Of a stretch of DNA of 51,501 nucleotides, positions 34,618 to 38,185 are shown one piece after another. Origin of the DNA: an uncultured Armatimonadota bacterium (GTDB taxonomy: Bacteria > Armatimonadota > Fimbriimonadia > Fimbriimonadales > Fimbriimonadaceae); the NCBI GenBank assembly GCA_903927025.1, contig CAIYLG010000059.1, forward strand, positions 1 to 51,501. Reading direction: 5' to 3'. The first letter of the stretch is position 1. Each line of letters starts with the position of its first letter. The notes under the pieces were generated by a model. That model did no database searches and was not told the DNA's origin. It worked only from the letters and a program-made list of their open reading frames with translations. Position numbers and translations under genes: made by a program.

Positions 34618-35614
34618 GGAAGAGTTCGCTTACCGACTCGTTTAGGTGGATGCGGCGGATCGCATCGGCGATGAGCGGAGCCGATGGCAGAACCGTGAGT
34701 TTAGGAAAATCCTCTCCTGCCTGATTGGGGATCGTGTCCAAAACCACAATCTCAGAAAGACAGCTGTCCTGAAGCCGGGTCCGCGCGTCCTTGCTGAATA
34801 CGGCGTGGGTTGAGCAGGCAATCACCTCTCGAGCGCCTCGATCCATCAGTGCCTGAGCGCCCATGATGATGGATCCGCCAGTGTCGATCATGTCGTCAAT
34901 CATTACGCACTTCTTGCCGACAAAGTCGCCCACGATTTCCACAACCTCAACCACATTTGGGGCGGGCCGACGCTTGGCGATAACAACGAAGGGGCATCGG
35001 AGCATCTCTGCAAGAGATTTGGCTCGGCTCACTCCCGCGACATCCGGACTTACGACCACGATGTCCTCCTGCTCATGGAACCCTCGATCCACGAAGTACT
35101 GGCCTAAAATTGGCCCACCGTAGAGGTGATCTACCGGCACGTTGAAAAACCCCTGGATCTGCTCCGCGTGCAGGTCGATGGCTACAATTCGGTCGGCACC
35201 GCTCGCCTCAAGGAAGTTGGCGATCAGTCTCGCCGTAATCGGCTCGCGCGGCTTAATCTTCTTGTCCTGCCGCGCATACCCGTAGTACGGCATGACCACC
35301 GTGATGCGCCGAGCAGATGCCCTTCTGAATGCGTCGAGCATGATGAACAGCTCCATCGCATTGTCGTTCGTGGGGTTGCAGGTCGGCTGGAGAATGAATA
35401 TCTCATTTCCCCGAGCGCTCTCCTCAATCATGATGCGGATTTCGCCATCGGCAAACTTCGTGGTCGTCAGCTTTCCGAGTTCGACACCCAGCTCAGCCGC
35501 AACGCGCTTGCCAAGCTCAGGGTGTGCATTCCCCGAAAAGAGCTTCATCCCGTCCAGAGACCGCTCTTTCAACAACTTCCCGATTTTTTGATTTTGCGCC
35601 AACGTGCTGCCCAT
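34604..35614 (-). CDS. prs: Ribose-phosphate pyrophosphokinase
   Basis: A 336-residue enzyme that makes PRPP from ribose 5-phosphate and ATP. The FADGEI and YGYARQDKK segments, the catalytic flexible loop RRPAPN and the PRPP-binding CVMIDDMIDTGGS loop are all present. The start is uncertain. ATG 35614 has GAAGGAAGG directly upstream but overlaps glmU by 46 bases. An internal ATG at 35548 gives MKLFSGNAHPEL, exactly where E. coli-type Prs proteins begin. The stop overlaps the first membrane-cluster gene by 14 bases, so PRPP synthesis and the cluster share a transcript. Confidence 0.94.
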   Translation of the reverse strand: MGSTLAQNQKIGKLLKERSLDGMKLFSGNAHPELGKRVAAELGVELGKLTTTKFADGEIRIMIEESARGNEIFILQPTCNPTNDNAMELFIMLDAFRRASARRITVVMPYYGYARQDKKIKPREPITARLIANFLEASGADRIVAIDLHAEQIQGFFNVPVDHLYGGPILGQYFVDRGFHEQEDIVVVSPDVAGVSRAKSLAEMLRCPFVVIAKRRPAPNVVEVVEIVGDFVGKKCVMIDDMIDTGGSIIMGAQALMDRGAREVIACSTHAVFSKDARTRLQDSCLSEIVVLDTIPNQAGEDFPKLTVLPSAPLIADAIRRIHLNESVSELFHGWR

Positions 35615-36963
35615 CCTTCCTTCGTTTCCTGCCTGGCTCTTCCAAATGCTCCAGCCTCATCGGGCACGTCATGAGTGATGACTGAGCCCGCCGCAACTAT
35701 TGCTCCGGTTCCGATGCGCACCGGAGCCACCAAGGTGGAATGAGACCCGATGAACGCATTCGCGCCGATCTGGGTCTGGTGCTTGTGGTAGCCGTCGTAA
35801 TTGCAGGTGATGGTGCCGGCACCAATGTTGGTTTCTTCGCCAACAGTGGCGTCGCCGATATAGGAAAGATGATTGACCTTGGCGCCTGGGCCGAGGTTTG
35901 CGTTTTTGATCTCTACGAAGTTGCCAGCCTTGCTTCCGTCGGCCAGGTTCGCCTTAGGACGGAGGTGTGCATATGGGCCAACCCAGACTTCGGAGCCTAC
36001 TACAGCCCGATCAACGTAGCTCGCGATAATCGAAGATCGATCTCCGATTGAGGAGTTCTCAATTCGCGTGTACGGGCCAATCTTGCAGCCCGAGCCGATC
36101 GATGTGCTGCCAACGAGGAGAGTTGCAGAATCAATGACCGTATCTGGCCCGATGGTGACGTCCACACCGATTGATATCGTGTCGATATTGCCTAGCGTCA
36201 CTCCATTGAGGGCGTGCTTCTTCAGAATTCGAAGCCGCATCTCTCGATCTGCTAGAGCAAGTTGCCATCGGTCGTTGACTCCAACCGTGATCTCCGGATC
36301 GTCAAAAATCTTCGCGGCAAGAACGCCGCCCTGGTTCTTCACGACCTCAAGCACATCGGTGAGGTAGTACTCGCCCTGCGCGTTCGTGTTGCTTAGGCTA
36401 GGGAGGATCGAAAATAGCGTCGGACAATCGAAGCAGTAGAGCGCAACGTTGATCTCACGGATCGCCTTCTCCTCTGGAGAGGCATCTTTCTCTTCGACAA
36501 TCTTTGCAGGATTCCCCATATCGTCCCGGACGATTCGACCGTAGCCCTTAGGGTCCTCCAGGATGCTCGTGGACAGGGTCACTGTCGCTTTCGCGCTCTG
36601 ATGCGCTTCACATAGCTCGACGAACGTTTCCGCCTGCAGCAGAGGTGTATCGCCAGCGGCAACGATGACGGGTCCCTTGTGATCTACGAGGAAGTCCTTC
36701 GCCATCAGCGCCGCGTGACCGGTTCCGAGCTGCTCATGCTGCCAAGCGTAGTCGTAAGACTCGCCAAGTGCCTCCCGAATCAGATCGCCGCCATGACCGA
36801 TTACGATGATCGGTCGCTCCACACCGGCAGCCTTCATCGCTCGCGCCACGTGCTCAACCATCGGAATGCCACAGACGCGATGCAGACCCTTTGGCAGCTC
36901 TGATTTCATTCGCGTACCCTTGCCTGCCGCAAGGATGATGCCGGCGATTGAAGAGGAATTCAT
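35569..36963 (-). CDS. glmU: Bifunctional UDP-GlcNAc pyrophosphorylase / glucosamine-1-phosphate acetyltransferase
   Basis: A 464-residue enzyme making UDP-N-acetylglucosamine for peptidoglycan and lipopolysaccharide. The N-terminal uridylyltransferase begins GIILAAGKGTRMKSELPKGL. The C-terminal acetyltransferase is a left-handed beta-helix with hexapeptide repeats (VDVTIGPDTVIDSATLLVGS and after). I start at ATG 36963; an ATG at 37050 would add 29 unrelated residues. It is the likely first gene of the run to recO. An inverted repeat GAAATCCC/GGGATTTC (37036-37072) lies about 75 bases upstream, in the gap shared with upp, and could be an operator. Confidence 0.95.
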   Translation of the reverse strand: MNSSSIAGIILAAGKGTRMKSELPKGLHRVCGIPMVEHVARAMKAAGVERPIIVIGHGGDLIREALGESYDYAWQHEQLGTGHAALMAKDFLVDHKGPVIVAAGDTPLLQAETFVELCEAHQSAKATVTLSTSILEDPKGYGRIVRDDMGNPAKIVEEKDASPEEKAIREINVALYCFDCPTLFSILPSLSNTNAQGEYYLTDVLEVVKNQGGVLAAKIFDDPEITVGVNDRWQLALADREMRLRILKKHALNGVTLGNIDTISIGVDVTIGPDTVIDSATLLVGSTSIGSGCKIGPYTRIENSSIGDRSSIIASYVDRAVVGSEVWVGPYAHLRPKANLADGSKAGNFVEIKNANLGPGAKVNHLSYIGDATVGEETNIGAGTITCNYDGYHKHQTQIGANAFIGSHSTLVAPVRIGTGAIVAAGSVITHDVPDEAGAFGRARQETKEGWAARWRKIKKSGSC

Positions 36964-37159
36964 TTGTGGTTCTTGTCCGACAGTTGTTAAGAACCGGACG
37001 GAACATTTTGCCCCTTTTGGATGCACGAGGGCAATGAAATCCCCCGACATTGAGCGCCTATTGCGGGATTTCCGATTCTGAGCGAGATGAATCCGAACCG
37101 GAGCCCAACTCCTGTGAGCTTGCTTCGCGTGCTAGCGTCAAACGGATTAGAATAGGTGA

Positions 37160-37777
37160 ATGCCCCTGCAAGTTCTGGATCACCCGCTGGCCTTTCACCT
37201 GCTATCGCATCTTAGGGACAAGTCCACGCCTCCGGAACAATTTCGCGTTTTGGCTGAGAACCTCACAACGCTCTTGGTGCTCCAAGCGACTTACCCGATC
37301 CGCACACGTGAGGTCATGGTGGAAACGCCTCTTCAGACCACGCCTGGGAAGGTTCTGGGCGAGAGTCTGGCCGCAGTTCCCGTGCTTCGAGCAGGTCTAG
37401 GCATGCTCCAATCGGTGGTCCGACTCTTCCCGGACGTCGCTGTCGGATACATAGGTCTAGAGAGGCACGAAGATACGGCGATTGCCCGGAGCTACTACAG
37501 CAAGCTCCCCTGTATGGACAATCGGTTCACCCTGTGCCTTGACCCGATGTTGGCGACGGGAGGGTCCGCTGCACAGGCCATCAGCCTGATCAAGGCAGCT
37601 GGCGCGATGCACGTCACCATGGTGTCGGTCGTGTCTTCACCGGAGGGAGTTGCCCACCTTCAGGAGCGCCATCCGGATGTCAACATTGTTACCGGCGCCT
37701 TGGATGAGGGTCTCAATGACAAAAAATACATCCTTCCAGGTCTCGGAGACTTCGGAGACCGGCTGTACGGCACCTAG
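37160..37777 (+). CDS. upp: Uracil phosphoribosyltransferase
   Basis: A 205-residue pyrimidine-salvage enzyme that joins uracil to PRPP to give UMP. It shows the family opening (LQVLDHPLAFHLLSHLRDKS), AVPVLRAGLGM, the PRPP loop LDPMLATGGSA and the uracil-binding end segment KYILPGLGDFGDRLYGT. AGGTGA stands directly before the ATG. A TAGAAT -10-like box 7 bases earlier would make the transcript nearly leaderless; I see no convincing -35. It is divergent from glmU and ends at the terminator shared with the small riboswitch-controlled gene. Confidence 0.95.
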   Translation: MPLQVLDHPLAFHLLSHLRDKSTPPEQFRVLAENLTTLLVLQATYPIRTREVMVETPLQTTPGKVLGESLAAVPVLRAGLGMLQSVVRLFPDVAVGYIGLERHEDTAIARSYYSKLPCMDNRFTLCLDPMLATGGSAAQAISLIKAAGAMHVTMVSVVSSPEGVAHLQERHPDVNIVTGALDEGLNDKKYILPGLGDFGDRLYGT

Positions 37778-37787
37778 GGGGGGCCAC

Positions 37788-37818
37788 AAAGTAAAAGGGC
37801 CCCCTTGCGGGAGCCCTA
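37788..37818 (-). terminator. Intrinsic terminator of the riboswitch-controlled small gene
   Basis: On the minus strand AGGGCTCCC (37817-37809), the loop GCAA and GGGGGCCCT (37804-37796) form a 9-bp stem with one mismatch, followed by TTTTACTTT. The stem begins within the TAG stop of the 48-residue ORF, so it closes that transcript. Read the other way it lies 18 bases after upp. Confidence 0.85.
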
Positions 37819-37962
37819 CTCAACAGGAGGTGCTGACTCGAAAGGCACGATAACTTCTCCGGCGGTTGACACTGCCCCATTGCAGCCAAAGACCGTCTTC
37901 GAAGGGCACAATGCCCCTGGACCACAAATGCAAGTGTCTTGGCGCCCTGATAAGAACAACAT
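37816..37962 (-). CDS. 48-residue four-cysteine protein downstream of a c-di-AMP riboswitch
   Basis: ATG 37962 to TAG 37816 encodes 48 residues. It begins MLFLSGRQDTCICGPGALC and contains four cysteines at positions 11, 13, 19 and 27 (CxC-x5-C-x7-C). The rest is a neutral stretch ending FESAPPVE. GAGGG ends 4 bases before the ATG; a stronger GGAGG lies 13 bases upstream. It is the only ORF that fits between the aptamer and the terminator in a sensible place. A competing 87-residue frame starts within the Shine-Dalgarno and runs through the terminator stem. The cysteine pattern suggests a metal site or disulfides. The family is not recognised, and protein-coding status is inferred from the promoter-riboswitch-ORF-terminator layout. 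Confidence 0.55.
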   Translation of the reverse strand: MLFLSGRQDTCICGPGALCPSKTVFGCNGAVSTAGEVIVPFESAPPVE

Positions 37963-38014
37963 TGTTCCCTCTTCACCTCCGGCCTAAACCGGCGTCGTGC
38001 GCGCGCATCCGACT

Positions 38015-38140
38015 CATGCTACGTCTACGGGGTTAGCTGTCGGGTTCGGGCCAAGAGTTACCCTAGAGAATCAAACTGACTCTCATTCACCCCTAAGTTA
38101 CGGTTCCCCCGTTTTCCTTTTGGGAAATTCAACGCTGGCT
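38015..38140 (-). ncRNA. Cyclic-di-AMP riboswitch (ydaO/yuaA type)
   Basis: On the minus strand, three hallmark segments of the ydaO aptamer appear in the right order. These are ACGGGGGAACC (38112-38102), AGGGGTGAAT (38094-38085) and CCCGAACCCGACAGCTAAC (38050-38032). A variable stem GAGAGTC/GATTCTC (38084-38066) and TAGGGTAAC lie between them. The outer P1 stem pairs GCGTT (38135-38131) with GACGT (38025-38021) using two wobble pairs. A pseudo-two-fold arrangement of repeated GAA.CC and GGGG blocks is typical. Ligand binding usually shuts off expression. The expression platform is unclear: CCGG at 37989-37992 can pair with CCGG at 37979-37982, next to the GGAGG ribosome site, which hints at translational control. 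Confidence 0.93.
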
Positions 38141-38156
38141 TTGCAGCCACGAAAGT

Positions 38157-38185
38157 AGTGTAACACGATTCTCAGCTTTGGTCAG
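38157..38185 (-). promoter_or_regulatory. Promoter for the c-di-AMP riboswitch unit
   Basis: On the minus strand CTGACC (38185-38180) and TACACT (38162-38157) are separated by exactly 17 bases. They resemble sigma-70 -35 and -10 boxes. The predicted start near 38150 is about 15 bases before the aptamer's outer stem, as expected. Confidence 0.65.

Follow-up and report, generated by a model that had tools for sequence, protein, structure and literature searches.

On the minus strand of the window (the whole stretch of 51,501 nucleotides of Armatimonadota DNA that was analyzed), we found a c-di-AMP aptamer followed by a structured RNA that is almost surely noncoding and by a terminator. A copy of the anti-Shine-Dalgarno (anti-SD) tail of 16S rRNA lies close to the terminator and is conserved in many relatives. 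Based on these sequence features, we lean toward the view that the unit specifies a small RNA (sRNA) under c-di-AMP control that would act in trans by pairing with Shine-Dalgarno (SD) sites. The features of the unit are listed in Table 1.

Table 1. Features of the aptamer-headed unit, in window coordinates.
Feature	Position	Strand	Evidence
Extended -10 promoter element (TG T TACACT)	38157-38165	-	TGnTAnAnT conserved in relatives
c-di-AMP aptamer (ydaO/yuaA, RF00379)	38008-38144	-	88.2 bits, E 2.4e-19; single match in the genome
Structured noncoding RNA domain (model R1), ~200 nt	37818-38015	-	12/38 double-compensatory pairs; behind aptamers in 16 genomes
Hairpin CCGGU...GCCGG, sharing bases with the SD-like GGAGG	37979-37992	-	Double changes in 3/5 pairs; pairing in 100% of cells
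Hairpin with the apparent ORF start codon (37962-37960) in its tip	37949-37971	-	Double changes in 4/9 pairs
Internal-loop hairpin (arms GACGGU/ACCGCC, GCUGC/GCAGU)	37861-37897	-	Double changes in 5/11 pairs
Hairpin UCAGCA-CCUCC-UGUUGA with anti-SD motif CACCUCCU at 37832-37825	37820-37836	-	Consensus fold; motif and terminator counts; 16S tail
48-codon open frame, judged not to be a gene	37816-37962	-	Start lost in 4/7 relatives; frame-breaking gaps; flat codon-position differences
Intrinsic terminator	37788-37817	-	9-pair stem, T-rich tail, conserved in relatives

The identity of the aptamer is virtually certain. The RF00379 covariance model matched the minus strand over its full length (model positions 1-134), with a score well above the gathering score of 38 bits and with all consensus blocks present, and binding of c-di-AMP is predicted. 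There was no other RF00379 match in the whole 5.25-Mb genome, and a diadenylate cyclase domain is encoded in the same genome.

The unit lies between sucD (plus strand, divergent, upstream) and upp (plus strand, convergent, downstream). A plain sigma-70 scan detected no promoter at the unit. An extended -10 element, TGnTAnAnT, is located directly 5' of the aptamer and is kept in most of 11 aligned relatives, and the sequence farther upstream is unconserved among relatives. Transcription would start near 38150. The terminator (stem 37817-37796) was the only terminator-like site between 37500 and 38500. Because shuffled sequence gives 1.1 such sites on average, the support for the terminator comes from its conservation in relatives. 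These results bear out much of a first-pass annotation of this DNA, which had described a self-contained, terminated unit between sucD and upp with a ydaO-type aptamer (38140-38015), a promoter (38185-38157; upheld through the conserved extended -10 element, though the plain scan was empty) and a U-tailed terminator (37818-37788). We consider it quite probable that this is an independent, sRNA-like unit.

The segment between the aptamer and the terminator folds into a conserved structure. We retrieved aptamer loci from the genus, the family and part of the order for comparison, and derived a consensus fold with 38 retained pairs from a sequence-only alignment of eight relatives. Double compensatory changes were found in 12 of these pairs, and 91.8% of the cells in the alignment can pair. 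The observed value was reached in none of 500 shuffles for four of five measures and in five of 500 for the fifth, figures that are not to be read as probabilities given that the eight sequences are few and related; slid controls fell far below the observed values. A covariance model built from the domain (R1) had a single match in each of 16 genomes, out of 113 searched at the order level (E <= 0.01). By coordinates, all 16 matches begin at or within ~40 nt behind an RF00379 aptamer, and they are confined to the genus of the window and three other genera of the same family. The domain matched no known Rfam family at gathering score; a relaxed threshold gave nothing but sub-threshold matches, the best of them to ctRNA_p42d on the terminator hairpin (29.8 versus 50 bits). 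What follows the aptamer is, with high confidence from comparative sequence evidence, a noncoding structured RNA, and a noncoding payload behind an aptamer, with a terminator of its own, is the arrangement of a riboswitch-controlled sRNA.

The last small hairpin of the domain contains the anti-SD motif. Two species of the genus, which served as the reference because 16S rRNA is missing from the source assembly, have GGAUCACCUCCUUA as the 3' tail of 16S rRNA, and the motif is an exact eight-nucleotide copy of this tail. Among 136 aptamer loci from the relatives examined, 50 (in 49 genomes) had RCCUCC within 240 nt of the aptamer and then a terminator-like hairpin. Permuted motifs put through this test gave 3 to 8 loci, and GGAGG gave 21, as is expected given that aptamers at other loci stand ahead of genes with SD sites. 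Of the 50 loci, a few appear spurious (G069, G070 and the second locus in G063) and the script missed a few plain cases of motif plus terminator (G031, G099 and G100), so we put the class at about 47 genomes, each with one locus, from families f1 and f5. Across the f1 and f5 loci, ACCUCCU persists while the payload varies widely in length and sequence. Both the excess over permuted motifs and the identity to the 16S tail are those of an ultraconserved CCUCC of the anti-SD sRNA type. Three of 20 members of the genus (G013, G014 and G010; loci L016, L017 and L029) still have the aptamer and some of the structured domain, with no ACCUCC behind the aptamer. They count against the anti-SD reading and are possible natural cases of motif loss.

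Several other roles for CCUCC found little in their favor. Intramolecular pairing with GGAGG at 37980 is unsupported, as G004 and G011 have GGAAG with CCUCC unchanged. By eye, there was no conserved start codon on the opposite strand for which CCUCC could be the SD site of an antisense gene, and no covariation either for or against an alternative helix (UGACAC/GUGUCA) that would hide the CCUCC hairpin. A specific, extended target of 12 nt was also rejected: its complement, CAACAGGAGGTG, occurs in the source genome only at the locus itself.

We think the unit would be transcribed as one noncoding RNA of ~360 nt, from ~38150 to ~37788. Its 5' part would sense c-di-AMP, and the final small hairpin of its 3' domain would present CACCUCCU just before the terminator, so that the RNA could base-pair in trans with the SD sites of mRNAs and lower their translation. 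The ligand would switch either the production or the shape of the RNA. In the sister family f5, a terminator directly behind the aptamer has a 5' arm complementary to the 3' strand of P1. For seven f5 members, this pairing beat all 200 shuffles in three, was in the best 10% in three and was not special in one. Because this terminator can compete with P1, the arrangement suggests that in f5 the ligand turns the RNA off. An early terminator of this kind was sought in the genus of the window and none was found, which weighs against our preferred reading.

A less likely alternative is that the structured RNA is linked to c-di-AMP but works without pairing to SD sites. Its CCUCC hairpin could be bound by a protein or the ribosome, or could be a structural or processing element beside the terminator. 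The structure and its linkage to the aptamer are conserved whichever mechanism applies, and in many loci UGUUGAGC 3' of CCUCC is conserved beyond what pairing needs. The lack of an extended target is also consistent with this alternative, as is the predicted accessibility of CCUCC, which lies in the loop of the consensus hairpin: the motif is more accessible than other C residues, yet its margin over shuffled context is not significant (mean unpaired probability 0.43 versus 0.37, p 0.13). However, the best-conserved stretch over otherwise dissimilar payloads is precisely the 16S anti-SD octamer, and SD pairing explains this simply.

Regulation in cis is improbable. The RNA would then be a long leader controlling a downstream gene by attenuation at the final terminator, as cis action is typical of most c-di-AMP riboswitches. 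The candidate genes are hisB in most relatives, where it lies on the same strand about 185-380 nt behind the aptamer, and glmU at the source locus, beyond antisense upp. With regard to INDEPENDENCE of the unit from neighbours, the commonest setting is sucD - unit - hisB; in G000, G004 and G012, the unit is followed by convergent upp and then by glmU on the unit's strand. The downstream genes thus vary, and the domain is conserved even where hisB is absent. A -10-like box was found 3-14 nt before the ATG in 14 of 22 hisB starts (background 17%), and no GGAGG precedes the hisB starts examined. Because of this combination, the sequences suggest that hisB is expressed from its own promoter as a leaderless transcript, which argues against control by the unit. 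For glmU, the distance is more than 700 nt, with antisense upp in between, and a search for an alternative antiterminator to the last stem found none.

Two observations on these neighbors stand on their own. The hisB starts in L085, L046, L159, L147, L151 and others have GGTATAAC-like -10 boxes a few nucleotides before the ATG and lack an SD site, so that hisB looks leaderless in this group. In the window, glmU, a cell-wall precursor gene (35569-37050, minus strand), comes after upp (37160-37777, plus strand) on the strand of the riboswitch, and read-through beyond the terminator would yield antisense upp RNA leading into glmU.

The first-pass annotation had proposed a 48-residue cysteine protein as the target of the riboswitch, and was right that the target is unusual but not about what it is. 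The open frame exists, with cysteines spaced as described and an SD-like GGAGGUG upstream, and residues 1-34 are matched at 71% in G004. However, alignment across relatives revealed no conserved start codon, frame or third-position bias of the kind that marks a small-protein gene. The start position has ATG in G004, G007 and G016 and another codon in four of seven close relatives (ACG in G012 and G019, AAG in G017 and TAG in G011). Single-base and other frame-breaking gaps, which the annotation itself had named as a refutation, interrupt the alignment, and differences from the window are spread evenly over the first, second and third codon positions (9/10/8 in G004, 12/15/15 in G007, 15/17/15 in G012 and 15/13/11 in G019). 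The ATG lies inside a covarying hairpin, compensatory base-pair changes occur in the same nucleotides, and the matches at the protein level track conservation of the RNA; the predicted product matched no Pfam or NCBIfam family. We reject the open frame as a gene, and control of such a protein is hardly credible. The locus illustrates that an ORF can be small, plausible and preceded by an SD-like site and yet be RNA structure in disguise.

Other RF00379 loci in relatives have different contents. Six of them (L070, L031, L052, L055, L066 and L053) precede short helical proteins (MLTEFEVRRR..., MKLLEKAESAF..., MSFVSQIMRKAS...) with no Pfam match above cutoff, which are possible new members of the c-di-AMP regulon. 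There is also a second kind of RNA that is linked to the aptamer and appears noncoding (L068 in G035, L138 in G070, L156 in G069, L165 in G071, L039 in G026 and L018 in G029), in which the aptamer is followed by a hairpin with GGAGGAGG, then by ...GAACCUCC... and a conserved TTTTGTCACCACTGGGGCC-like stretch. It occurs mostly in genomes without the ACCUCCU anti-SD class.

The broadest form of our preferred reading, SD pairing in trans, is tentative: an order-wide Armatimonadota regulatory RNA that mimics the 16S anti-SD tail under the control of a c-di-AMP riboswitch, through which the second messenger may tune translation of many SD-led mRNAs but leave leaderless mRNAs alone. The riboswitch of this class is the sole c-di-AMP riboswitch found in the source genome and in about half of the genus. 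A conserved unit with the sensor at the head of a noncoding RNA that bears a 16S-tail motif would bring post-transcriptional control into c-di-AMP signaling, supply one more ligand to the very few known for riboswitch-controlled sRNAs, and define a new RNA family in Armatimonadota. In the open-access literature, we found no paper in which a trans-acting sRNA is under the control of a c-di-AMP riboswitch, and none coupling riboswitches with Fimbriimonas or Armatimonadota.

The locus can be compared with three known systems. Described RF00379 riboswitches are reported to control protein genes for osmotic response, K+ transport and the cell wall (PMC7266159, PMC6488665, PMC9960051). The aptamer here resembles theirs in being full length with every consensus block, but is followed by a noncoding RNA and then a terminator. 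The functional precedents are EutX and Rli55, trans-acting sRNAs controlled by B12 riboswitches (PMC7602753). As in the unit described here, the riboswitch heads a noncoding RNA and not an mRNA, and premature termination is what we propose for f5. In contrast, they respond to B12 and titrate the EutV protein via ANTAR sites (PMC7602753), whereas the present unit has c-di-AMP as its predicted ligand and an anti-SD motif in its payload. The sRNAs alpha-r14 and NfeR1, the precedent on the anti-SD side, have an ultraconserved anti-SD motif, CCUCCUCCC (PMC10746234), and share with our class the placement of such a motif in hairpins with sequence-variable stems. They are rhizobial, with three motifs and no aptamer (PMC10746234), whereas the RNA described here is from Armatimonadota and has a single motif behind a c-di-AMP aptamer.
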